This document shows positions 1-49,307 of a stretch of DNA of 55,557 bases, piece after piece; position 1 is the stretch's first letter; each line of letters opens with the position of its first letter. The translations under genes were made by a program, and so were the position numbers. Source of the DNA: Candidatus Zixiibacteriota bacterium (lineage in GTDB: Bacteria > Zixibacteria > MSB-5A5 > GN15 > FEB-12); NCBI GenBank assembly GCA_040756055.1, contig JBFLZR010000009.1, forward strand, positions 68,620 to 124,176. Direction: 5' to 3'. Below the pieces are notes generated by a model. It was not told the origin of the DNA. It did no database searches and worked only from the letters and a program-made list of their open reading frames with translations.

Positions 1-1014
1 CCTTGATTCCTGTCCGAGGCCGAAAGAGTAGTCGGATTGGAAATTCAGACGGCGTGTTCCGATGAAGTTGCGTTTCCCCAGGCCGAGCGATAGATCCCAG
101 ATCAGGTCGCGCAGTTCCGATTGACCGGCACCGGTCTTGACAGATACATAATATGGCTTGCGCTCTCTCACTTTGAGCTGGAAATCCGGGCGGGATCGGT
201 CCCCGCTGTTTTCCGCCTGAGTCAACTGCAGATAGCTGAAATATCCCGATTCAAACAGTCGGCGCTGCGAATCCAGAATTGCCTTACGCCGGTAAACGTC
301 TCCGGACTTCAAAGTAAGTTCACGTCTGGCTACGAACTCGGGGTATATCTCAGAGCCTTCGACAGTGACATCCCCAAAGTGAACCAGGGAATCAGCCTCC
401 ACGACGAAATTCACGGGGGTAATCGGTCGGGTGGTCAACGTATCGATTTCAAAGTCTACTCTCGCGTACGGATAGCCGTTGTTGGCCAGGATAGTCTTCA
501 TATCGAAGACGACCTGATTTATTTGTATCGGGTCGACAGGCTCGCCCGATTTAAGTTTCTGATGGATTTTCGAGAAACGGAAGTCAAAACCACCAGGATA
601 GGTCCCGGTAACTGAAGTTGAGCCATAGAAAAACTGATTTCCTTCATTGATAGCGACTCTCACCAGGGCGGTGGAGTCGGGTTTCAGTATTTCGAAAGTC
701 TCATCCACCTGAACTCCGAGGAATCCATTGATATAATAAAGGTATTTGATTTCGAGTGTATCCCTGCCCAGTGTTTCCCTCTGTATGCGGCTGCGCCTCT
801 CCCCTGTGAGGACATCAAACAGAGTCCGAACCTTGGAGTACATCCTATTTCTTATTCTGGAATCACTGAGATACGAGTTGCCTTCGATCACGATAGAATC
901 GATTATCGGCTTATTCCTCGCCCAGCGCAGAGTGACTTTATCAAGAGGCTTTGCGGCACACAGACCCGGGAGGGTTATAAACACGAGCAGCAACAATACT
1001 GTCAGTCGATTCAC
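1..1014 (-). CDS. Omp85-family outer-membrane assembly protein (TamA/BamA-like), N-terminal part
   Basis: This gene has no stop codon in the window because it runs off the left edge; 338 codons are visible. Reading the minus strand from a GTG at 1014 gives a signal peptide (MNRLTVLLLLVFITLPG), then POTRA-like repeats around residues 35-110 (IDSIVIEGNSYLSDSRIR) and 205-265 (HFGDVTVEGSEIYPEFV), then the start of a beta-barrel (YYVSVKTGAG; GKRNFIGTRR). That order is the Omp85 architecture of BamA/TamA, which insert or translocate proteins at the outer membrane. The start shares its G with the TAG stop of the upstream tamB-like gene (TAGTG), so the two are probably translationally coupled. Pairing with TamB argues for a TamA role, but the sequence alone does not separate TamA from a BamA paralogue. 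A clear BamA lies at 45235. Confidence 0.85.
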   Translation of the reverse strand, partial: MNRLTVLLLLVFITLPGLCAAKPLDKVTLRWARNKPIIDSIVIEGNSYLSDSRIRNRMYSKVRTLFDVLTGERRSRIQRETLGRDTLEIKYLYYINGFLGVQVDETFEILKPDSTALVRVAINEGNQFFYGSTSVTGTYPGGFDFRFSKIHQKLKSGEPVDPIQINQVVFDMKTILANNGYPYARVDFEIDTLTTRPITPVNFVVEADSLVHFGDVTVEGSEIYPEFVARRELTLKSGDVYRRKAILDSQRRLFESGYFSYLQLTQAENSGDRSRPDFQLKVRERKPYYVSVKTGAGQSELRDLIWDLSLGLGKRNFIGTRRLNFQSDYSFGLGQESR

Positions 1015-4000
1015 TAGAATTCCCAGTACAGCTTGAGGTTCATGTGGTATAGCTCATCCTCGTCCCGCAAACCTTCGAGTAACACCGATCGGTTGAATCG
1101 GTATTCGAAACCGACCTCCTGTCGGCTCTGGCCGGAGAGCGCGGAACGACCGTAGAGATACAGATTCGGTGAGGTGTAAAATCCCAGGGTCACCCTGGTA
1201 TCGAGCGGGTCGAGCTCGCCCGAATAGCTCGGGTCGATTTCGAAGGTCTCAACGCCCAGGTGACGCAATTGCCTTGAGCCGATTCGGGACACTTGCGCCG
1301 AAAGCAAATCAGTCATGCGTCTTTCAATACCTCCGCTGGCCGTGGCCCCCGCCTCACCGCTATAAACGTTGGCCACCAGAAGCGGGAGAATATCTTCGCG
1401 GGAGTTGACATCGGAATCCTCTGTCGGGTTTATTTCCGGCTCCTCGAGGGTGCCGGTCACATGGATGCCAAGCTCAAGTTGTTCGACCTGGTTTTGTTCT
1501 TCGGCTCCCCCCCGGCTGCCGGCCACGCGCGTATAGGCGGTGATATCGAGACTGGGATTGAAGGTGTCGCCGCCCTCGAAGACTACGCGGCTGCCGGGTT
1601 CGATTGTAAAAGTCTTGTCGAACAGAAAGCCTCTTCCGCGCAATATCTCCATTTCGCCTATGAAGCTGTATATGCCGGACTCGCGCAGCATGGTAATCTC
1701 GCCGGCAAACTCAGCGTCGATATCTTCGTTTTTTATCCAGTAGTTCGAGATTATGTTTATGTCGACGGCCAGATTCCACGTGTTCTGTCCCGAGAGCGCG
1801 GTCATTATCGGTGAACCCTGGTCCGGCTCCGCAAAATCGACCAAGTAGTTCATTGACAAAAGCTGAATGTTCCCGGTCACGAGCGGCGGACTGTCGCCTT
1901 CGACGTGTAGTTTGCCCTCGAAACTACCCTCTATGTCATCGAGTTCATAGCGGAAAGTAAACTCTTCAGGAATGACAACATCGAGATCGTAATACAAACT
2001 GTCGAGAGACTTGACCGTGATGGTACCTTCGGCAAAAACCGATTTTTTCTCCTCGTTGTCCATAACATAGGCCTCCATCCCGTCGATAATAATCCGGTTG
2101 TCGTTCATTCTGACACCGACCGAATCGCTGCGCAGCCAATCCTCGAGGTCGAAGTATTTCAGCCGCGCGTCCACCATGAAAGCTCCTCCCTCAAGATGGG
2201 GATTCAGCGGCGTCCCGGAAAGAACGAAGTCGGCGAAGAAGTCTCCTTCGAGCTGTTCGACCGACGGCTGAAGCAGGGTGACGAGATCGAACCGGCTGTC
2301 GACGGCAGCTATGGAGATATTCATCGGCAGGTTCGGAAACCGTTCCAGGGAATCCGCCGTGAAGGCGAGATCGACATAAAAAGAACCCTCCGCCCGGTAG
2401 TCTCCGTAGCCGGACAGCAACTGGAAGTTGACAATATTTAGTAGGCGATCCCCATATACAAGACTCGTGGCAACATCTCCCAGAAGCAAGTCCTCGTATA
2501 CCAGCGAATCCGTTTGCGCATTCAGGATAAACTCGGGTTGCATGACTGACCCGGTTATAGAAGCTTCGCACGACAACAGACCATCAACCATAAGGCTTTC
2601 GGCAAACAGGTTTTTCCAGGGTTTCATCGGTATGTCGTTAAGCAGCAGTTGAAGATCCATCGTTTCATCATAATTCGCCCTGCCGTTTGCCGATAGCCAG
2701 GCGCCGTTGTTGCCGATCGCGGCCTGAAGGATGTTAAAACCGAGCGAATCAACCTGGACTTGCATCCCCGCGCGGTTGTAGAATCTCTGCCCGAAAAGGT
2801 CCAGTATGAGGGTGTCTACCGTCATAAGTCCCGGTTGAGCCTCGTAGTCGTAAAGTCCCATCGAATAGAGCCGCGTGTAAGGATTGTTTATGCTGGCGGT
2901 GTCGAAAAAAACAAGATTGGAGTCAATTCTAATCAGGGCATACCCCGTGTCAAACGGCATATCATATACAGTGCCCCGATAAAAATCAATATCAACCGAA
3001 CCGAGTTTGCGCGATAGAAAACGTTCGATATCGACAGCAGCGAACAGGCTGTCGCTGAACAAACCATATATCCAGACCGAGTCGGACATGAAGTAACCCT
3101 TGAGATCGGGATCGGAAGTGTTACCGGTGAGGGTTGCCTCGGCACGACCTCTTCCTCCCGGCTGGTCGATAAACAACTTCCCTTTGTAGCGATCCAGGTT
3201 TTTCAAATCGGCGGTGACAGCAAGGTCCATATCACCGGAATATTCAACTTTGCCGTTGGCGTAGAAGATATTTTCGAAATAGTCCACTCTGAAAGAATCA
3301 AGGAAGATGATGGAATCGGTGGTGATCACCATATCCCCGCTCCCCCGCTGGATGGGATAGTCGTCGAACGACGATTCATACAGGCGGGTACGAAGATCGA
3401 GGACAAGGTCAGCGCGTTTGAAGGATTCGCCGTACATGATAATATGTCCGTTGAGATCCGACTCGAAAGTGTTCGCGATGAGATTGTTCAGATTGAACTG
3501 CCTGATGTCGGCTTGCAGGTTATAAGTTTCAACCGGACCGTTGAAATCGATATAACCATTACCATCTATCCCGCAATCGCCAAAAATGGTGCCATAGAGG
3601 GTATCGAACTGAAGGAATTTGTCAGCCAGCGAGAAATCCACGAACAGGTTGTCAAGCGACATGAAAAGAAACTGGCCGCCAATATCAACCGAGCCACGCA
3701 GATCGTCCCCGGCGAATTCAACCGTACCGTTAACATCGACCGTTCCTTTCAGCTTCGGTCCGATAAACGTAGCCACATCGGCGAGATTGACGTTATCCGC
3801 GGCAAAGGAGACAACGCCTGAGGGAACGTTTTCAAAATTCATGTTGCCGTCAATTCTGATTCTCAGGTCTCCGAATATGAAGACGATGTCTTTGAAAAGA
3901 AGCTTGTTGTCGGCGAAGGTCACCTTGCCGCCGGCGGCATCCAGTCCGAGTTTTTGACGGTTGGATGTGAACTCGAACTGCTCAACATCGACAGAGTAAG

Positions 4001-4559
4001 TATCCTCCTCTCCTTTGAGCGCCAGCGATATGAATATATCATCAAAGGTCAGGGTGTCATCCGGCTTGATCAGTTTGACCGTAAGGCTATTAAGACTTAA
4101 TCGACCTATGGAAAATGGCGGCGCCAGGTTCGGCGGTTTCGCGGCGGCGGTGTTCTTCGGAGAAAAGTTCGGTATGATCCAATGCCCGCTGGTGTCTCTT
4201 AGCAGAACCAGTTCGGCGGAATCGACTGTCAGATAATCGAAGATGAATTTACTGTCCCACAGATTGGCAAGGGCGTACGACGTAACCAGGCGTGGAATGT
4301 GCAACAACTGGTAGCGCCGAGAGGCATCGTCGTAGTACACCGTTACGTCTTCCACCAGCAGACCTGACAAGAAGCTGCCTTTTACTTTTCCGACGGAGAC
4401 ATCAAGATTGTACTTCTGACCAACGACAGCATCCAGTTTCGCGTTGATAATTCTCTCGATGCCACCCAGCTTGAACAGGTACAGGTAGCCTCCCGCGAAA
4501 AGAACGGCGAGGCTCAGCGCGGCAATGAGTGAGACTTTAATCCATCGACGAATTTTCAT
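1014..4559 (-). CDS. tamB: TamB-like translocation/assembly module protein (DUF490 C-terminus)
   Basis: This 1181-residue protein has a single N-terminal membrane anchor (about residues 9-30). A very long region of repetitive beta-strand segments of the AsmA/TamB type follows (for example GNMNFENVPSGVVSFAADN), and it ends with a TamB C-terminal domain including GTLEEPEINPTEDSDVNSRE and a final aromatic strand (LKLYWEF). In characterised systems TamB spans the periplasm from the inner membrane to its Omp85 partner TamA and helps assemble outer-membrane proteins or move lipids. The length matches the family. Its ATG overlaps the stop of the CMD-family gene (ATGA at 4556-4559), and its stop overlaps the start of the Omp85 gene, so the TamA-TamB pair is intact and sits inside the sigma-factor operon. 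The family call is confident; the cargo is unknown. Confidence 0.9.
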   Translation of the reverse strand: MKIRRWIKVSLIAALSLAVLFAGGYLYLFKLGGIERIINAKLDAVVGQKYNLDVSVGKVKGSFLSGLLVEDVTVYYDDASRRYQLLHIPRLVTSYALANLWDSKFIFDYLTVDSAELVLLRDTSGHWIIPNFSPKNTAAAKPPNLAPPFSIGRLSLNSLTVKLIKPDDTLTFDDIFISLALKGEEDTYSVDVEQFEFTSNRQKLGLDAAGGKVTFADNKLLFKDIVFIFGDLRIRIDGNMNFENVPSGVVSFAADNVNLADVATFIGPKLKGTVDVNGTVEFAGDDLRGSVDIGGQFLFMSLDNLFVDFSLADKFLQFDTLYGTIFGDCGIDGNGYIDFNGPVETYNLQADIRQFNLNNLIANTFESDLNGHIIMYGESFKRADLVLDLRTRLYESSFDDYPIQRGSGDMVITTDSIIFLDSFRVDYFENIFYANGKVEYSGDMDLAVTADLKNLDRYKGKLFIDQPGGRGRAEATLTGNTSDPDLKGYFMSDSVWIYGLFSDSLFAAVDIERFLSRKLGSVDIDFYRGTVYDMPFDTGYALIRIDSNLVFFDTASINNPYTRLYSMGLYDYEAQPGLMTVDTLILDLFGQRFYNRAGMQVQVDSLGFNILQAAIGNNGAWLSANGRANYDETMDLQLLLNDIPMKPWKNLFAESLMVDGLLSCEASITGSVMQPEFILNAQTDSLVYEDLLLGDVATSLVYGDRLLNIVNFQLLSGYGDYRAEGSFYVDLAFTADSLERFPNLPMNISIAAVDSRFDLVTLLQPSVEQLEGDFFADFVLSGTPLNPHLEGGAFMVDARLKYFDLEDWLRSDSVGVRMNDNRIIIDGMEAYVMDNEEKKSVFAEGTITVKSLDSLYYDLDVVIPEEFTFRYELDDIEGSFEGKLHVEGDSPPLVTGNIQLLSMNYLVDFAEPDQGSPIMTALSGQNTWNLAVDINIISNYWIKNEDIDAEFAGEITMLRESGIYSFIGEMEILRGRGFLFDKTFTIEPGSRVVFEGGDTFNPSLDITAYTRVAGSRGGAEEQNQVEQLELGIHVTGTLEEPEINPTEDSDVNSREDILPLLVANVYSGEAGATASGGIERRMTDLLSAQVSRIGSRQLRHLGVETFEIDPSYSGELDPLDTRVTLGFYTSPNLYLYGRSALSGQSRQEVGFEYRFNRSVLLEGLRDEDELYHMNLKLYWEF

Positions 4560-5221
4560 GTCTTCAACTGACCAATGATCCGTTTTGCCGCGCCGTAACC
4601 GTTACCGGCGGCGGGCCCGATATCATCAATCACCGAGGTAACCAATTCCGGGGGTGCTCCGACGTTGAGCGCTCCACGGATGTGCGAATGAAGCTGTTTT
4701 TCTCTGTTTTCCATCATCAAAAAGGCCATAATCGCCAGTTCTCGGGAGATGATGTCTACGTTTGGCCTGGACAACACCTTCCCGTATCCTTCGATAATCA
4801 TCCAGCGAAACACTTCGGGCGCCATAGCAGACACGCGGTCCATCAGTCTGAGATTATTCGGCCCATACACTTTTTTATACAACTCGGACCCCTCGTTGAA
4901 CCACTGCTTGGATTCCTGCGTGGTAATTGGTCCGCAGCCGTCAGCGCTGTTATTCGCCGGCAAAAGGCGATGAAGTGTTTCGACCGCGGTCAACATCCTG
5001 GGAAAGCCAAGAAACAGGTACGACTGCAGTACGATTTCGTAGAACGATGAACGCCGCAAACCGTAATGCTGGCCGCGCTCGATGGCCTTCGCCATAACGC
5101 CATCTTCCGCGAAAGTTATACTGGCAGCATACAGCGCCAGGGCTCTTTCAGCGGGATGGCGATCGGGTGAAAACAGGTCTAACCTGTGGGTCAGCGCCCC
5201 GATATCTGCCGACTGATTCAT
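4556..5221 (-). CDS. Carboxymuconolactone decarboxylase (CMD/AhpD-like) family protein lacking active-site cysteines
   Basis: The 221-residue all-helical protein contains two CMD-like halves, around residues 26-88 (AERALALYAASITFAEDG, then YEIVLQSYLFLGFPRML) and 145-205 (SRELAIMAFLMMENREKQL, then HSHIRGALNVGAPPELV). This resembles the gamma-carboxymuconolactone decarboxylase / AhpD fold. AhpD-type peroxidase reductases carry a C-x2-C motif; here only one cysteine is visible (C96, in ADGCGP), so a thiol peroxidase role is unlikely. The gene lies 47 bases after the pseudo-HtrA gene and overlaps tamB by four bases (ATGA), placing it within the envelope operon. No aromatic-degradation genes are nearby, so the family name should not be read as a function. 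Confidence 0.75.
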   Translation of the reverse strand: MNQSADIGALTHRLDLFSPDRHPAERALALYAASITFAEDGVMAKAIERGQHYGLRRSSFYEIVLQSYLFLGFPRMLTAVETLHRLLPANNSADGCGPITTQESKQWFNEGSELYKKVYGPNNLRLMDRVSAMAPEVFRWMIIEGYGKVLSRPNVDIISRELAIMAFLMMENREKQLHSHIRGALNVGAPPELVTSVIDDIGPAAGNGYGAAKRIIGQLKT

Positions 5222-5268
5222 GGGGGTAAGTTAAAGGAAACGAGGAAGAAATGGCAACGTAAAACTTG

Positions 5269-6453
5269 TTAGCGCAGCTGCTCAAGCCGCTTTTCAAGCA
5301 GGCGAATGCTCTCTTTGAGGACGTTGATTTCACTGAGCAGTGAGTCTCTCAACGACTGCGGCAGCCGTTCGGCATCGTCGGAGTATAGCGCATTGCTTAG
5401 AGTCTTCGTGGTACCTATCTTCGCGGTAATCCAGTAGGGATGGTTCTGTCTTAGAACGCCGAACTCAATTTCGGTTCCCACGGCGGACTGCTTGACCATA
5501 CTCGCCAGAAGGGTCGCTGATGGCATACCAAGCCGATTGACACTAAACAGCAGGTCGCCCTTTTTGAGCCCGGCTCTCGCCGCCGGTGAGGTGGGAACAA
5601 CCCTGGTGACCACAAGACCACGCTCGATCAGGATGTCGGGCGATTGAGAGCTTGCCAGTTGATTGGTCCCCCGGATCTCGAGAGGCGGAAAGATTTCAAT
5701 CTCCGCGGTTGTCAGTCCCAGGTAGCCCGCGTAGCGATCTCCCTGGTTTATGAGCACATCGGCTACTTCGTGTATCTCAAACGCCGGCACGGCGAGTCCC
5801 ATGCCGTCGAGGCCGCTCTGTCCCATGCCGCCAACGACTATACCGATCAAATCGCCGGAGAGATCGAACACACCGCCCCCGAGCGTACCGGAAGTTATCG
5901 GCGCCGTGAATTGCATGACGCCATCGGGCCGCACCCCGGCGCAAAATCCCAGCGAGGGGGCGGCGCGCAGGCCATAGGCATTACCGAGGGCGACTACCAT
6001 TTGTCCGGCGCAACCGAGTTCACGTGACAACCGCACCGGTTGACCAACCGGTTTGGAAGATTTGAGCATGGCCAACCCGCTCTGGTAATCCACTGCTTCC
6101 ACTGTTGCCTCAACCTCTTTGTCCTCATACAGGATCCGAATCAAGGGTCTATTGGCCACTGATGAAGCCACGGCGAGTATATGGCCGAGGGTGTCATAGA
6201 CAATCCCGGTCGCGATGACATTATAAACGGTTTCCCTTCCCGGTTGAGCATCCACACCGGGAACCGAAGCCGCCGGGTAGGAAGACTCTATGGCAACGAT
6301 AGAAGTTGACAGGCGATATACGAGATCACTGAGCCCGCTTTCGAAGCGGGTCAGAGAATATTCCTGGGCGATAACAGTTGAAGAAAAAAAGACCGCCCAA
6401 AAAGCTATAAGCACATACTTTCCGGCGGCCTTGCCATAAACGTTAGGTAGCAT
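5269..6453 (-). CDS. HtrA/DegP-like protein with PDZ domain and degenerate catalytic triad (pseudo-protease)
   Basis: I chose the ATG at 6453 (394 residues) because it opens a normal signal peptide ending near VIAQ|EYS; an in-frame start 17 codons earlier would lie deep in the anti-sigma gene and spoil the signal. Residues about 75-210 align with the HtrA trypsin-like domain (ATGIVYDTLGHILA; VALGNAYGL; GDLIGIVVG), and residues about 278-347 form a PDZ domain (VVPTSPAARAGLKKGDLL). Aligned to the HtrA motifs, the His of NNHVV is S97, the Asp of TDLAVLK is G126, and the Ser of GNSGGP is L191. All three triad positions are therefore lost, so it should be proteolytically dead. The last 28 residues look like a coiled coil. 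It overlaps the anti-sigma stop, which suggests a sensor or chaperone role in that pathway; this role is inferred. Confidence 0.85.
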   Translation of the reverse strand: MLPNVYGKAAGKYVLIAFWAVFFSSTVIAQEYSLTRFESGLSDLVYRLSTSIVAIESSYPAASVPGVDAQPGRETVYNVIATGIVYDTLGHILAVASSVANRPLIRILYEDKEVEATVEAVDYQSGLAMLKSSKPVGQPVRLSRELGCAGQMVVALGNAYGLRAAPSLGFCAGVRPDGVMQFTAPITSGTLGGGVFDLSGDLIGIVVGGMGQSGLDGMGLAVPAFEIHEVADVLINQGDRYAGYLGLTTAEIEIFPPLEIRGTNQLASSQSPDILIERGLVVTRVVPTSPAARAGLKKGDLLFSVNRLGMPSATLLASMVKQSAVGTEIEFGVLRQNHPYWITAKIGTTKTLSNALYSDDAERLPQSLRDSLLSEINVLKESIRLLEKRLEQLR

Positions 6454-6454
6454 T

Positions 6455-7144
6455 TTAGTAAACCTTCGCGCCCTCCTGGACTGAAGAGCCTGCGGGCAGT
6501 CCATATACGCGGATCACCGGCCGTACACGGAAATAGTCAGGTACGTAAGGAGCATGGTAGGCGGTCTGAGAGGTTACCTGCCTCATACCGGAGACCGGTT
6601 CGAAACTGTTTGCGGAAGTCATCGAACTGGTCAGCGTGTTAACACGTTCCACCCGCGCCAACTCATCATTGAGCGACCATCCGCGATGCATCGGCACCGC
6701 CAGGTTGGGGTTGTTTACGGGCTGCACCGTGAGATAGGAATCGTCGAGCTCCCTGGTCGAGGAACTCGTGAGCCCCACCCCCTGCTTGATTTCGGGTGAG
6801 ATGGCGACGATGGAAATGAACAGAACCAGGCAGGCGGTCGCAACGACCGGAACCAACTGCCCCCAGGTTACTCTTGGAGCGGTCTTGGGCAGGTAGGCCT
6901 CCGTGCGGGTCTGGGCGAACCTCTCCTGGGCAACTCGGTTGAGGAGTTTGGCGTTAAAATCATCGGAAACCTTAAACTGCGGAATTTCTGACCTGACATC
7001 GAGCAATGATTTATAAAAGGCCTCTTCTTTGCGACAGGCCGAGCAGGTCGAAAGGTGTTCACTCACAGCCAACCTGCGCCGCCCATCCAACTCATCACTA
7101 CAATAGGCCGACAGGTAAGAGCGCACTTTTCGACAACGCATCAT
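6455..7144 (-). CDS. Zinc-finger (ZAS) transmembrane anti-sigma factor
   Basis: This 229-residue protein starts with a zinc-binding anti-sigma domain: C4, then H30-x3-C34-x2-C37 (SEHLSTCSACRKE), the Hx3Cx2C signature of ZAS anti-sigma factors that hold ECF sigma factors inactive. One membrane helix follows near residues 95-113 (VVATACLVLFISIVAI), leaving about 115 residues outside the cytoplasm that could sense the periplasm. A strong ribosome-binding site (GGAGGG) lies just before the ATG at 7144. The gene overlaps the sigma gene by 47 bases and is followed at once by the pseudo-HtrA gene, so it is almost certainly the cognate regulator. The release mechanism (regulated proteolysis or zinc/redox switching) cannot be told from the sequence. 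Confidence 0.88.
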   Translation of the reverse strand: MMRCRKVRSYLSAYCSDELDGRRRLAVSEHLSTCSACRKEEAFYKSLLDVRSEIPQFKVSDDFNAKLLNRVAQERFAQTRTEAYLPKTAPRVTWGQLVPVVATACLVLFISIVAISPEIKQGVGLTSSSTRELDDSYLTVQPVNNPNLAVPMHRGWSLNDELARVERVNTLTSSMTSANSFEPVSGMRQVTSQTAYHAPYVPDYFRVRPVIRVYGLPAGSSVQEGAKVY

Positions 7145-7715
7145 AACCCTCCAGTTTGGGCTGTAGTTTGTCTCGCAACATCATGCGAGCGCGGTTAACG
7201 CGGGACTTGACCGTTCCCAGCGGAACACTGAGCATCTTGGCAACCTCTTCATAAGGAAGCTCCTGGATGTCGCGGAGGATAAATGCCACGCGGTATTTCT
7301 CAGGGAGATCCTTTATCGCGCTTGAGAGCGCCTGTGGAAGGCGACTCGGCAATTTCATCTCCACCGCAAAATCAGTCTCGTTCCCTTTCATTTCAGTAAT
7401 GTCAAAGAATTTGAATTTCTTTCTCTTTCGGAGTTCATTGCGCGCCAGGTTAAGGGCAATGGTGTATATCCAGGTTGAGAAACAGTGCTGAAAGTTGAAC
7501 GACTGCCGGTGCTGGTAAACACGAACAAAGGTCTCCTGAACAATATCCTGGGCTTCTTCAACCGATGACAACATGCGCCCGATAACGTTCATGAGCCTGT
7601 CTTTGTATCGATCCACAAGCTGATTGAAAGCAACCATGTCGCCGTTCTGGACAGCCTTTATAAGAGCGAAATCGATATCTTTTTCTGTTTCCTTAATCAC
7701 CGGAAATCCTATCAC
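7098..7715 (-). CDS. ECF (RpoE-like) sigma-70 family RNA polymerase sigma factor
   Basis: The 205-residue protein has the two-domain ECF layout. Region 2 lies at about residues 25-95 (VDRYKDRLMNVIGRM; EEAQDIVQETFVRVYQH; the STWIYTIALNLARNELRKRKK -10 recognition helix), and region 4 at about 132-185 (LPEKYRVAFILRDIQ; VPLGTVKSRVNRARMMLR). There is no region 3 and no N-terminal extension, as expected. The predicted start is GTG at 7715, and I see no good Shine-Dalgarno before it. A possible ECF-type promoter lies 14-43 bases upstream, which would make the transcript nearly leaderless. The anti-sigma factor overlaps its 3' end. The downstream genes imply that it controls envelope biogenesis. Confidence 0.92.
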   Translation of the reverse strand: MIGFPVIKETEKDIDFALIKAVQNGDMVAFNQLVDRYKDRLMNVIGRMLSSVEEAQDIVQETFVRVYQHRQSFNFQHCFSTWIYTIALNLARNELRKRKKFKFFDITEMKGNETDFAVEMKLPSRLPQALSSAIKDLPEKYRVAFILRDIQELPYEEVAKMLSVPLGTVKSRVNRARMMLRDKLQPKLEGYDALSKSALLPVGLL

Positions 7716-7728
7716 CTGAACGCTTATT

Positions 7729-7758
7729 TCTAATACCCTTCAACCCGGATAAAGTTCC
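7729..7758 (-). promoter_or_regulatory. Candidate ECF-type promoter upstream of the sigma-factor operon
   Basis: On the minus strand GGAACTT ends at 7752, and after a 16-base spacer TATTAGA follows at 7735-7729. GGAACTT matches the well-known -35 of sigma-E group promoters; the -10 match is weaker. The position, just upstream of the ECF sigma start, would fit autoregulation. This is a motif match only. Confidence 0.3.
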
Positions 7759-7888: not shown

Positions 7889-9103
7889 CTAAAACATTTC
7901 AGGCCATGGACTTATGTAAATGATAAGACCGATGGCAAATACGATAAGAACAGGGACCGTGAATTTCCGATAGACTTTCAGCAGATCGCTGCCAAAATAC
8001 TCATTGGTAAGAATCAGACAAAGGTGAGTCGGCGACAGGATTATACCCAGAAAGCCGGAGATGTAAGCCAGAAAGATGTGCGAAGGGACTATCTGTGGCT
8101 GGTATAGATAGCTCGCCAGAAGTGTATATCCAAGCCCCACGTAGGCGGCCACCATGCCGGTCAGCATACCGGCGGCGAAGCACACAAGGAAAATTACGAG
8201 TTCGGCCGGCAGGTTGAGTGACGAAGCTATAGTTGGAATTGACTTAATTGCCCCCGTGAGTTCCAGTGAGGTTTGGAATGACAGGATTCCGAACACCAGA
8301 AAAACGAGCTTGATAGAGATCCCTTCCTTAAAGGCGGCTTTCAACCTGGCTGTTTCGGGTCTCGTAAGAAGAGAAACCAGTACGAGCGCCACAACTACGG
8401 CAATAGCCAGTTCCAGCTTGAATATAGCATAAAGTCCGATTGCCAGGGCGATTGGCCAAATCGCTCCAGCTATGCCGCCAAGCGCCTTGATTGTATCAAC
8501 CGAATCGGACCCGGCCAACTCTATCTTGCGGGTGATAAAAATCAGGCCAACCGAGGCCATCACAAATGTCATGGGCATTTGAAGCAGCGAGACTTTATAT
8601 ATCGGCATCCCGGTCAAAGCCTCGGTCAAGATAAGTCCCGGATATATCGGCCAGCAAAACTCGGCAATGTGACGAAACCAATAGTTGGTGATCAGCTTAA
8701 ATTCGGGCGAATGTTTACCCTCGGCCAGAACGTTGTCCACCAGAGGCGCCGACAAAAGCGATCCGCCGGGCATCGGCATCAGACCAACGAGCGTCGGGAG
8801 AACAGTTGCAGCAGTGCGGCCCCCTCCCGGAAGCCTTCGGCAGGCTGCGGTGAGCTTGGTCAGGTATCCAAGTTCTTTAAGCAGAGCGCCAAGGATAGTA
8901 ATGGAGACCACTATGGCTGTCAGGGAAATAAAACGCTCGGACTTTATGAGCTCCCAGTATCCATTGAGCAGCACCAGCAGATTCAGGCCATACAGCAGAG
9001 CGGTTACGACACCCGCTCCGAAGAGGGTTATGCCCACCGGCACCTTCTTGCGCAAAGCGATTACGATGGCGGCCAGTACGGCAACAAGCTTGAGGGCATC
9101 CAT
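7889..9103 (-). CDS. DUF401-family multi-spanning membrane protein (putative permease)
   Basis: This 404-residue protein consists of roughly ten hydrophobic helices and matches the DUF401 family, with the conserved LMPMPGGSLLSAPLVD segment (about residues 108-123) and the related C-terminal loop GMVAAYVGLGYTL and SPTHLCLILTNEYF. The two halves resemble each other in pattern, as in other ion-transporter-like families with inverted repeats. Family members are uncharacterised, so the substrate is unknown. It stands alone, transcribed away from the class-IV aminotransferase gene, with a shared short intergenic region (9104-9191). The 170 bases between it and the sigma-factor gene contain only AT-rich sequence and the candidate promoter. 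Confidence 0.8.
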   Translation of the reverse strand: MDALKLVAVLAAIVIALRKKVPVGITLFGAGVVTALLYGLNLLVLLNGYWELIKSERFISLTAIVVSITILGALLKELGYLTKLTAACRRLPGGGRTAATVLPTLVGLMPMPGGSLLSAPLVDNVLAEGKHSPEFKLITNYWFRHIAEFCWPIYPGLILTEALTGMPIYKVSLLQMPMTFVMASVGLIFITRKIELAGSDSVDTIKALGGIAGAIWPIALAIGLYAIFKLELAIAVVVALVLVSLLTRPETARLKAAFKEGISIKLVFLVFGILSFQTSLELTGAIKSIPTIASSLNLPAELVIFLVCFAAGMLTGMVAAYVGLGYTLLASYLYQPQIVPSHIFLAYISGFLGIILSPTHLCLILTNEYFGSDLLKVYRKFTVPVLIVFAIGLIIYISPWPEMF

Positions 9104-45234: not shown

Positions 45235-47730
45235 ATGATGCGAGAAAGCGGAGCACGGATAGCTCTAACGATAATTCTGACCCTGCTGCTGACTGCTATC
45301 GTAGCGCAGTCCCAGCAGGTATATAATGTTGTAGATATCGAAGTAGTAGGCAACCGGGTTGCCTCCAAGTCACTGATACTCGGAGTCTCTTCGCTTCATC
45401 TCGGCTCTCCCCTGACTCCCGTCAACACCGCGGAAACCATACGCCGTCTATACGGCCTGGGTATTTTCTCGAATGTCAAACTCGAGGCCGAGGAGGTCTC
45501 AGGCGGACTCAAAGTCTATGTCATAGTCGAAGAACTTCCCAAGCTGGCGGGCCTTGAATTCGTCGGAAACGATAAGGTTGACGATAAGGATTTCAAGGAG
45601 AAGCTTAATCTTGGCGTGGGCGGCTATGTTTCCCCATATCTGGTTGAAAAGAAAAGAAACGAAATCAAAAACATATACGCCGAGAAGGGGTATTTCCAGG
45701 CGACCGTTACGCCATCGCTGGAATATAATTTCGATTCTACTGAAGCCATCCTCACTTACAAGATAGACGAAAAATCGAAGGTTAAGGTCCAGCAGGTCAT
45801 CATGACCGGCAACGATCGTGTGCTGGCCGATGACGTAATCGGCGTCATGCGTAACCGCAAGAGAGGTTTCCTGCGGAGTTCCGACTTTGCGCAGGATAAG
45901 TACGAAGAGGACCTGGAGAAGGTCATCACCGAGTTCCACAAGCGCGGTTTTATCGATGCCTACCTTATGTCGGATTCGACTTCCATAGACACAACCATCA
46001 ACCGCATGACGATCTATATCGATGTTTACGAGGGGCCCAAATATTACTTCGGTAACGCCGAATTTGTCGGCAACGAAGAGTTGCCGTCGGAGCTTCTTCA
46101 GAAGCTGCTCAAATATGACGAGGGTGACGATTTTAACGCCGAAAAATATGACGAATCCATTCAGGAGATATACTCGGCCTATTACGACATAGGTCATCTC
46201 AATATGCGCATGCTCGACGACCGCGCCACGAAAAACGATTCTATAATCGACATAACTTATACCATCTCCGAGGGGCTGCCCTCGCATGTCAATCTGGTCA
46301 AGATCGTGGGCAACACCAGGACCAAGGATAAGGTTATTCGTCGCGAAATATCGACCCTTCCCGGCCAGAAATTCAGCCGGGCGCTTTTGATTCGTTCCAT
46401 TCGTGACGTGATGGCGCTTAACTACTTTGCCAATGTCGAGCCGACACCGATAGGGCTTCCCAGCGGTGATGTCGATGTCGAGTTTAAAGTTGAAGAGAAG
46501 CAGACCGGGCAGGTATCCGCCGGAGCCGGCTACAATAGCGAAGACAAAGTCGTTGGCAATCTCGGATTGGGCATCCCCAATTTCCGCGGTATGGGACAGA
46601 GTGTTTCGTTTAATACGACTTTCGGCAGCAGGCGCAATTCGCTATCGATTTCGTTCACTGAGCCGTGGATGTTCGGCCGGCCGACATCGATGGGCGTTGA
46701 CCTGTACACCACTAACCGCAACTGGTACGGGGATTATCTTGAGGGCCGGCAGGGTGCTTCCCTGCGTTTGGGACGAAGACTTCGCTGGCCCGACAACTAC
46801 TTCAGGGTGTACACATCCTATCGCCTGGAACGGGCAAGATATTATGATTTCGATGATGCTTTCGTCGAAAGCAATTCATATAAAGGCTACTATCATTGGG
46901 CGCGTGAAGAATTTGACTCCGACGCCGATAGCTTCGTCGTAAAAGACACTGTCCTGCTTACCGAAGTTAACGGCCCCTATCCCGGTTCGTTGCTGCAGTA
47001 CAATGAAGAGTACAATTCAGCGTCCAAGCTTTCATTTACAATTGTCAGGGATTCGCGCAATCTACCGGAATTCGCCACCTCGGGATCGAAAATCGTATAC
47101 ACCTTTGAGAACACCGGCGGACCGCTGGGCGGATACTGGAAGTATCAGAAGCACTCGATATCGATAGCCAAATTCATTCCACTATTCTGGAAATTTTCTC
47201 TGGCCGCCAAAGTCGAGTACGGTGTCATTGTGTCACCGGGGGTGAGCGATGACCGGATACTTGTATCGGATCGCTTCACGCCTGGTGGAACGGCTTACGA
47301 CGGGATCGTAAGAGGCTACTCAGACGGGAGCCTCACACCGGATTCCACGGTAACTCAGTCAGACACGTTATATTACTACAGTGATTCTTCCGCGATATTC
47401 AGCCCTGACCGCCCCGCGCCCGACAGTATCAAGACAGCAGGCTCCTATCCGGTCAGGGTGCGCGGCAAATACATGCTCGTAACAAATGTCGAAATCCAGT
47501 TCCCGATTGTCGAGCAGCAGATATACGGACTGCTGTTCTTCGACGCCGGCAATTCGTGGCTGCGTAAAAGAGATATCAGACCGTTCGCGGATTTGTATAA
47601 AGGAGCCGGACTCGGTTTCAGAATTGCCGTACCGGGAATAGGTACGCTCGGGTTCGACTTCGGGTACGCTTTTGATGGAGATGATCAGGGGTGGAAACCG
47701 CACTTCCAGATAGGAACTACGTTCAGGTAA
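45235..47730 (+). CDS. bamA: Outer membrane protein assembly factor BamA
   Basis: The 831-residue protein has a signal peptide (ending near VAQSQQ), five POTRA-like repeats (IEVVGNRVASKSLILGVSS; LEFVGNDKVDDKDFKEKL; VIMTGNDRVLADDVIGVM; AEFVGNEELPSELLQKLL; VKIVGNTRTKDKVIRREI) up to about residue 420, and a 16-strand barrel with the IRGF-equivalent loop VRGYSDGSL near 685, ending FDFGYAFDGDDQGWKPHFQI and GTTFR. BamA inserts beta-barrel proteins into the outer membrane. The gene starts five bases after rplU and heads a run into skp and lpxD, a common arrangement. Confidence 0.95.
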   Translation: MMRESGARIALTIILTLLLTAIVAQSQQVYNVVDIEVVGNRVASKSLILGVSSLHLGSPLTPVNTAETIRRLYGLGIFSNVKLEAEEVSGGLKVYVIVEELPKLAGLEFVGNDKVDDKDFKEKLNLGVGGYVSPYLVEKKRNEIKNIYAEKGYFQATVTPSLEYNFDSTEAILTYKIDEKSKVKVQQVIMTGNDRVLADDVIGVMRNRKRGFLRSSDFAQDKYEEDLEKVITEFHKRGFIDAYLMSDSTSIDTTINRMTIYIDVYEGPKYYFGNAEFVGNEELPSELLQKLLKYDEGDDFNAEKYDESIQEIYSAYYDIGHLNMRMLDDRATKNDSIIDITYTISEGLPSHVNLVKIVGNTRTKDKVIRREISTLPGQKFSRALLIRSIRDVMALNYFANVEPTPIGLPSGDVDVEFKVEEKQTGQVSAGAGYNSEDKVVGNLGLGIPNFRGMGQSVSFNTTFGSRRNSLSISFTEPWMFGRPTSMGVDLYTTNRNWYGDYLEGRQGASLRLGRRLRWPDNYFRVYTSYRLERARYYDFDDAFVESNSYKGYYHWAREEFDSDADSFVVKDTVLLTEVNGPYPGSLLQYNEEYNSASKLSFTIVRDSRNLPEFATSGSKIVYTFENTGGPLGGYWKYQKHSISIAKFIPLFWKFSLAAKVEYGVIVSPGVSDDRILVSDRFTPGGTAYDGIVRGYSDGSLTPDSTVTQSDTLYYYSDSSAIFSPDRPAPDSIKTAGSYPVRVRGKYMLVTNVEIQFPIVEQQIYGLLFFDAGNSWLRKRDIRPFADLYKGAGLGFRIAVPGIGTLGFDFGYAFDGDDQGWKPHFQIGTTFR

Positions 47731-47752
47731 CAATAATCTTAAGGGGATACAT

Positions 47753-48292
47753 ATGTTGAGTATCAAAAGGACAATTCTGTTGGCTCTCTTTGCGTTCTTC
47801 GCGCTTTCGGTGGTCGGGAGTGTGGTCAACGCACAGGGGCTGAAAATCGGATTCGTTAGAGACGATCTCATCCAGACCCGCTACACCGCCTGGCAACGCG
47901 CTCAGGAACAGTGGGATCTCGAGCAGAAAGCTTGGGATGACGAGGCTATGGCCAAGAAGCAGGAGATTGACGATCTGATTGTCGAGTATGACAAGCAGAA
48001 ACTGATTCTCTCCGAGGACAAGAAAAAGGAGAAGGAAGCGGCTATCAGGGCCAAGCAGGAGGCGCTCGACGCCTACACTCGCCAGGTATACGGCCCGGGT
48101 GGAACTGCCGAGACAAAAAATAAGACCCTCCTTGAACCTCTTTTGGAAAATGTGAACCGGGCTATCGAAGCGGTGGCCCTCGAGGGTGATTACGACGTTA
48201 TCTTCACCATGCAAAGCGGACTGGGGTATATCAAGGAAGGTTACGACGTAACTGAAAAAGTCCTGGAATACCTTGAAAAGCAAGAGGAATAG
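47753..48292 (+). CDS. skp: OmpH/Skp-family periplasmic chaperone
   Basis: The 179-residue protein opens with a signal peptide ([20 protein letters not shown], near VNAQ|GLK). It is otherwise almost entirely charged coiled coil (about residues 55-115; [40 protein letters not shown]) flanked by the Skp body ([41 protein letters not shown]). Skp holds unfolded outer-membrane proteins for BamA. AAGGGG precedes the ATG, and the 3' end overlaps lpxD by 20 bases. Confidence 0.92.
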
Positions 48293-49307
48293 CGCGGCGC
48301 TGACTCTCAAAGAGTTGGCCCGTCAAACGGATTCGATTCTGGAAGGTGACGGCGGCATCGAGATCACCGGTGCCGCCCCTATCCACACCGCGATCGCGGG
48401 CGAAATCACTTTTGTCGCCAACACCAAGTACCTCAAATTCCTCGATAGCACAAAAGCCTCCGCGGTCGTTCTCGATAAAGATACGCCCTGTTCTCAGGTC
48501 GCCGTAATCAGAAACCCAAACCCCTATCTCACTTTCGCGAAGGTTCTGGATATACTTTATCCGGAGAGTGTTGATGTAGCTGTTGGAGTCGACAAATCAT
48601 CGGTAGTAGCCCCCGACGCCCAAATATCCCCCGAAGCTTCAATCGGCCCCCTCTGTCACATAAAAGACGGGGTTGTGGTGGGCGAGGGCAGTAAACTCGT
48701 CTCGGGCGTGTTCCTCGGCAAAAACGTCAGCGTCGGCAAAAACTGCATCCTCTACCCCGGTGTGTGTATTATGGATGATTGCTGTATCGGCGACAATGTC
48801 ATAATCCACTCCTCGACTGTAATAGGCTCCGATGGTTTCGGGTTTGCGGAATCCGAGAACGGCCTTAAGAAAATAAAGCAGGTCGGCTGGGTAGAGATTG
48901 GAGACGATGTAGAGATTGGTTCGAACTGCTCTGTCGATCGAGGCGCGCTCGGGCCGACCGTGATCGGCAAAGGGACCAAAATTGATAATCTGGTGCAGAT
49001 CGGGCACAATGTGGAGGTGGGCCGTCACTGTATCATAGTCTCTCAGGTGGGAATATCCGGCTCGACCAAACTCGGCAACGGAGTGATTCTGGCCGGGCAG
49101 GTGGGGATCGTGGGACACATCGAAATTGGAGACGGAGTAAAAATAGGGGCGCAGTCAGGAGTATCCCATTCGATCCCACCCGGCAAGAGTTATTTCGGCT
49201 ACCCGGCCCGCGAAATCGGGCAGACGGCGCGCATTGAAGCCGCGCTCGTCCATCTGCCGGAATTGCTCAAGCGCGTCAGAAAAATCGAGAAGAAACTACC
49301 GGATTAG
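48273..49307 (+). CDS. lpxD: UDP-3-O-acylglucosamine N-acyltransferase LpxD
   Basis: The 344-residue acyltransferase begins at TTG 48273 inside skp. It has an N-terminal UDP-binding domain ([40 protein letters not shown]) and a left-handed beta-helix of hexapeptide repeats (about residues 110-305), with the catalytic His in [19 protein letters not shown] and the [20 protein letters not shown] segment. It adds the second acyl chain in lipid A synthesis, so the organism makes LPS. The rest of the lipid A pathway (lpxC, fabZ, lpxA) is not downstream here. Confidence 0.96.

Follow-up and report, generated by a model that had tools for sequence, protein, structure and literature searches.

An operon joining an ECF sigma circuit and a catalytically dead HtrA-like protein to TAM-type genes in Candidatus Zixibacteria

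The window analyzed here, a 55,557-nucleotide stretch of a Candidatus Zixibacteria genome (G000:C9:68620-124176; genome 3.3 Mb, 97.7% complete), begins with six minus-strand genes arranged head to tail, encoding an extracytoplasmic function (ECF) sigma factor, a zinc-finger anti-sigma factor, an HtrA-like protein, a CMD protein, TamB, and an Omp85/TamA-like protein (Table 1). Searches against Pfam and NCBIfam agreed with the initial annotation on the place, strand, and family of all six. The junctions were also largely as annotated, with a 47-base overlap between the sigma and anti-sigma genes, a 47-base gap between the HtrA-like and CMD genes, ATGA between the CMD gene and tamB, and TAGTG between tamB and the Omp85 gene; the anti-sigma/HtrA-like junction was refined to a single base separating TAA from ATG. 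The HtrA-like start was corrected to ATG 6453, just past the anti-sigma stop, and a start at 6504, giving a 50-base overlap, was rejected as an artefact of an upstream ATG. For the sigma factor, a GTG start at 7700 is more likely than one at 7715, because relatives open with M-x-KETEKD and the promoter element extends as far as 7731. The Omp85/TamA-like gene is cut by the window edge; complete, it spans G000:C9:67708-69633 and encodes 641 amino acids ending in HFTILYAF, with POTRA domains present, although the part inside the window scored under both the TamA and the BamA equivalog cut-offs. The genes iscS and mnmA follow it on the same strand, beyond the window edge.

Table 1. Features of the sigma/TAM-type locus, in window coordinates.
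Feature	Position	Strand	Remarks
ECF-type promoter	7731..7758	-	GGAACTTTATCCGGGTTGAAGGGTATTA; -35 GGAACTT, -10 GTATTA; before sigma gene
ECF sigma factor	7098..7715	-	Sigma70_r2 and r4_2; probable true start GTG 7700
Membrane anti-sigma factor	6455..7144	-	zf-HC2; HxxxCxxC N-terminus; one transmembrane helix
Last anti-sigma residue Tyr (TAC) and stop TAA	6455..6460	-	Proposed PDZ ligand
Pseudo-HtrA	5269..6453	-	Signal sequence, triad-less trypsin-like domain (Trypsin_2), PDZ, C-terminal helix
PDZ carboxylate-loop candidate GYLGL	5713..5727	-	Residues 260-264 (open reading frame numbering)
CMD/PcaC-like protein	4556..5221	-	PF02627; signal peptide not evident
tamB	1014..4559	-	PF04357 7e-39 at C-terminal end, residues 836-1181
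Omp85/TamA-like gene, 5' part	1..1014	-	POTRA and Omp85 matches

The sigma factor contains regions 2 and 4 and lacks region 3 (PF04542, PF08281, and TIGR02937 all above cut-off). Its neighbor matched zf-HC2 above cut-off, with H29, C33, and C36 invariant, and the AlphaFold model of this protein has an ordered zinc-binding N-terminus, a transmembrane helix at residues 93-114, and a periplasmic part of low confidence; by these characters the pair is classified as an ECF sigma factor with a class I zinc-binding anti-sigma factor (ZAS). To the order-level sample belong 55 loci of relatives from four families and the locus itself, and in 51 of these 56 loci GGAAC-N17-GTAnnA was present upstream of the sigma gene, always at the same spacing though 17 to 21 bases were allowed. 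The two bases following GGAAC were T in 50/52 and 43/52 cases, extending the element to GGAACTT-N15-GTAnnA, and two further loci (L050 and L067) had near matches. The strict form, GGAACTT-N15/16-GTAYTA, matched once in the genome, upstream of the sigma gene, and the sigma factor is therefore seen as very probably autoregulated, with a local target. A wide regulon was rejected, both on this uniqueness and on the looser motif, which showed no excess over its control across 61 genomes (111 matches, 43 of them the sigma site itself, vs 139 for the reversed pattern). Degenerate targets of the sigma factor are possible; the strict motif gives no sign of a large regulon. Two further GGAACTT-N15-GTAnnA sites of similar sequence were seen in the two genomes of one f4 genus (G042:C39:34599 and C47:9490; G050:C134:27144 and C64:24070) and may be extra sigma targets there.

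The description of the HtrA-like protein as a non-catalytic PDZ protein was borne out. All three positions of the catalytic triad are replaced relative to DegQ/DegP (H>S114, D>G143, S>L208), and among 40 orthologs of the order and nine relatives from KSB1 and Calditrichota no complete triad was found, isolated positions sometimes matching; all the orthologs examined keep the fold and the PDZ domain. The trypsin-like and PDZ domains were recognized (PF13365 and PF13180), the protein scored under the curated TIGR02037 cut-off (98 vs 416 bits), and the AlphaFold model (mean pLDDT 88.7) had DegP, OMP-peptide-bound DegS (OMP, outer-membrane protein), and AlgW as its top Foldseek matches. Both glycines of the GYLGL loop, G260 and G263, were invariant when ten sequences from different phyla were aligned, giving a G-x-x-G signature at what we take to be the site where HtrA PDZ domains bind the ligand carboxylate. 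Canonical, DegP-type HtrA (500 bits, over threshold), including candidates for an active DegS-type site-1 protease, and an RseP-type site-2 protease (TIGR00054 above cut-off, C3:142542-143594) are encoded elsewhere in the genome, so proteolysis of the anti-sigma factor need not depend on the pseudo-HtrA. For the same reason, the initial placing of a dead HtrA/PDZ protein where a site-1 protease would be expected can be kept as to the protein present, but the part of a putative sensor or adaptor suits this protein better than that of a replaced protease. No RseB-family match was found among the operon proteins; the rest of the genome was not searched for RseB.

The anti-sigma factor ends in an aromatic residue wherever its gene is accompanied by the pseudo-HtrA, with few exceptions. 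In the window the protein ends in VQEGAKVY. Of the 85 loci that have a pseudo-HtrA, 81 encode Tyr or Phe as the last residue, including all nine from KSB1 and Calditrichota, vs 9 of 23 without (Fisher 1e-8, with kinship ignored; 2e-6 for Zixibacteria alone). Among 65 Zixibacteria tails, entropy was 1.08 bits at the last position vs 2.7-3.6 bits at each of the 14 preceding ones, and because Tyr and Phe are specified by TAC, TAT, and TTC, the constraint appears to act on the residue. Families f4 and f5 lost the pseudo-HtrA independently, and 9 of 14 tails there (7/10 in f4, 2/4 in f5) have lost the aromatic end and terminate in R, N, or Q; the sole f4 genome with a pseudo-HtrA (G059) keeps a VY tail. 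The other ZAS anti-sigma factors of this genome end in W, V, F, V, L, K, and P, and the linked cmd, htr, iscS, and mnmA products have no comparable aromatic end; tamA ends in F and tamB in Y or F, endings to be expected in a beta-barrel protein and at the barrel-like end of TamB. An origin of the tail in overlap with the next gene was rejected, since it persists, with differing codons, where htr lies at least 80 bases away. We therefore propose that the tail imitates OMP C-termini and is bound as a ligand by the PDZ domain of the pseudo-HtrA. In four Neomarinimicrobiota-type loci without a pseudo-HtrA (L165, L167, L168, and L170), the anti-sigma factor ends in a conserved IKTVKxxY, and another PDZ partner may exist.

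Conservation of gene order in relatives, which the initial annotation had proposed as its own check, was found in 50 of 51 informative genomes of the order and in seven further families of the class. Across the four families of the order, the series duf401-sigma-anti-sigma-htr-cmd-tamB-tamA-iscS-mnmA recurs on one strand, with tamB downstream of the sigma locus in all but one of the 51 loci on a long enough contig; recurrence of this arrangement in dozens of genomes puts the operon far beyond chance. In the sole exception, G010, cmd-tamB-tamA-iscS-mnmA is intact ∼170 kb from the sigma half. The cmd gene lies between the pseudo-HtrA gene and tamB in most of the order (absent from G015), and htr is missing from 10 of 11 informative f4 loci, G059 being the exception. 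Its relocation elsewhere in f4 genomes was rejected, as the other matches were canonical HtrA proteins (<180 bits vs 434 for G059), and two apparent natural knock-outs were set aside, G031 having an N-run gap at the site and the tamB of G057 being broken in pieces. The first gene of the series, a DUF401 permease/membrane protein (window 7889-9103, minus strand), is a conserved neighbor upstream of the sigma gene in many families.

Of 132 genomes belonging to the class, 105 had a sigma ortholog (67/78 among those of high quality). Identity was 64-93% within the order, and named records with 66-93% identical sigma factors were mostly Candidatus Zixiibacteriota (GN15) metagenome-assembled genomes; beyond these, identity dropped sharply, with values of 43-49% for KSB1, Calditrichota, and Neomarinimicrobiota. 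The sigma/anti-sigma/htr trio was general among loci of families f5-f19, followed by tamB-tamA in f5, f7, f9, f10, f18, f19, and one of two f13 loci, and not so followed in f6, f12, f16, and f17. Because several Zixibacteria families, like KSB1/Calditrichota, have the trio with no tamB beside it, the comparison identifies the trio as the older core, and tamB as a later or lineage-specific partner. A search for related loci with the pseudo-HtrA alone as query returned nothing. In the f3 loci L078 (3051-4091) and L079, the anti-sigma factor has a long insert between the zinc domain and the transmembrane helix, and the sigma factor carries an N-terminal extension.

An ECF sigma circuit that regulates itself and serves only the operon encoding it may thus control a TAM-type (translocation and assembly module) outer-membrane assembly module, a reading that we regard as evenly poised. 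At the level of sequence, its basis is the operon and its conservation, the fixed-spacing promoter, the zinc anti-sigma factor, the dead HtrA with its PDZ domain, and the Tyr/Phe tail. The docking, the competition, the sign of the effect, and transcription through tamB are what we infer. The anti-sigma tail would dock in the PDZ domain of the pseudo-HtrA, which would cap the periplasmic segment of the anti-sigma factor, combining an RseB-like guard role with a DegS-like scaffold. Unassembled OMPs, whose aromatic C-termini are exemplified by the LYAF end of the operon's own TamA-like protein, would compete for the PDZ domain, as OMP C-termini bind the PDZ domains of DegS and AlgW (PMC8545111). 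The freed anti-sigma factor would then be cut by an active HtrA and RseP encoded elsewhere, and the sigma factor, once released, would induce the operon to which it belongs, with tamB and the Omp85 gene among the induced genes. The wider proposal, that these loci represent an undescribed class of envelope-stress sensor in Zixibacteria and KSB1/Calditrichota, in which an OMP-tail mimic on the anti-sigma factor is held by a dead-HtrA PDZ domain, the signal is set by PDZ occupancy by unassembled OMPs and not by protease allostery, and the circuit is wired to TAM genes in Zixibacteria, is tentative and somewhat doubtful.

Several observations weigh against control of the TAM-type module through PDZ docking. 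The ECF motif is missing upstream of the sigma gene in the f3 loci L078 and L079, its strict form is missing from most loci outside the order, and the separate tamB half of G010 has no ECF box; iscS and mnmA, on the same strand, do not readily make sense as stress targets. It is conceivable, though on balance unlikely, that control by the sigma factor extends no further than its own gene, the anti-sigma factor, and the pseudo-HtrA, and that cmd-tamB-omp85-iscS-mnmA is a separate housekeeping unit downstream. The trio without tamB in other lineages, the intact second half in G010, the non-envelope functions of iscS and mnmA, and the sigma-70-like promoter matches in the region (15 counting both strands, against 7.4 expected) all favor such a division, but the tamB link is kept in nearly every informative genome of the order, the ATGA and TAGTG junctions are couplings, and terminator-like sites showed no excess in the region (4 vs 9.9 expected). 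The initial view of the sigma circuit and the TAM genes as one unit accordingly stands for their physical joining and conserved order, with the qualifications that the core is the trio alone, that the unit runs on into iscS/mnmA, and that it is divided in G010.

The role of the pseudo-HtrA is subject to similar objections. Families f4 and f5 retain the operon after losing it, so it is dispensable; four loci with a pseudo-HtrA have no aromatic tail (L050, L081, L083, and L084), nine loci without one keep it, and the ∼4 pseudo-HtrA changes on the tree reduce to three independent pairs on supported branches, which were not significant (median p 0.5). The nine retained tails, four of them the Neomarinimicrobiota-type ones ending in Y, would be explained if the tail were the ligand of another PDZ protein, an active DegS/DegP-type protease or RseP, and its link to the pseudo-HtrA reflected shared ancestry. 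The genome does encode several other PDZ proteases, but the decay of the tail in the two lineages that lost the pseudo-HtrA and its retention in G059 argue otherwise, and this explanation appears improbable. The pseudo-HtrA might instead bind the tail and promote proteolysis, delivering the anti-sigma factor to RseP or to an active HtrA, possibly within mixed trimers; the HtrA pseudoprotease MamO needs no active site of its own to promote MamE-dependent proteolysis (PMC4794232). The genomic evidence for such an adaptor is the same as for a guard, and the sign that distinguishes them cannot be separated by sequence, but f4 and f5 keep the sigma and anti-sigma factors without a pseudo-HtrA, implying that release is possible in its absence, though a replacement is conceivable. 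Overall, we consider the adaptor fairly unlikely.

The closest parallels are sigmaE/RseA/DegS and AlgU/MucA/MucD/AlgW. Envelope-stress systems known so far sense OMP folding by way of an active HtrA protease, and the assembly genes on which they act lie elsewhere. As in the sigmaE/RseA/RseB/DegS/RseP system of Escherichia coli, an ECF sigma factor is predicted to be held by a membrane anti-sigma factor alongside an HtrA-fold PDZ protein, OMP C-termini are the likely signal, and a site-2 protease is present in the genome; unlike in that system, the HtrA linked to the circuit is a catalytically dead one, an OMP-like aromatic C-terminus is found on the anti-sigma factor itself, the sigma operon includes tamB and an Omp85 gene, and the target set looks local. 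In the Pseudomonas AlgU/MucA/MucB/MucD system, as here, the sigma, anti-sigma, and HtrA-family genes share one operon; however, MucD and AlgW are active proteases, TamB/Omp85 genes are absent from that system, and a MucB gene was not identified in the Zixibacteria operon. The PDZ domain of AlgW binds WVF-type C-termini (PMC8545111). MamO of magnetotactic bacteria is likewise an HtrA-family protein that has lost catalysis and been kept for other roles (PMC4794232). The resemblance is in principle only, since MamO has no sigma factor link, binds transition metals, and keeps the H and D of its triad (T replacing S), whereas all three positions are lost here. As in proteobacterial TAM, tamB with its PF04357 domain lies beside an Omp85-type gene, but here a sigma circuit shares the operon, and the in-window part of the Omp85 protein stays below the TamA and BamA equivalog cut-offs; to our knowledge the proteobacterial tamAB operon is without a sigma circuit. 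Mycobacterial Ppr1, a PDZ-interacting protease regulator of Rip1, is also a PDZ-linked adaptor between protease and anti-sigma factor, but the protein families are unrelated and the regulator there binds the PDZ domain of the protease.

In the open-access literature searched, no description was found of this gene arrangement or of a dead HtrA adjoining a sigma factor, and no paper linked TAM expression to a stress circuit, as this operon may do. In this phylum, known chiefly through metagenomes, a putative sensor, a switch, and a TAM-type assembly module are combined in one conserved unit, and the dead HtrA has been retained throughout the spread of the sensor trio.

Other outer-membrane assembly genes were found outside the operon. 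A separate BamA gene (831 amino acids, five POTRA) lies at window 45235-47730 on the plus strand, placing the beta-barrel assembly machinery (BAM) outside the sigma operon, though in the same window; within the region 45235-49307 it is followed by an OmpH/Skp-like small secreted coiled-coil reading frame (∼47753-48291, delimited by eye) and then LpxD. At G000:C5:111716-117336, a second TamB-like reading frame (1305 amino acids) lies near an Omp85-type gene (616 amino acids, three POTRA matches) on the same strand.

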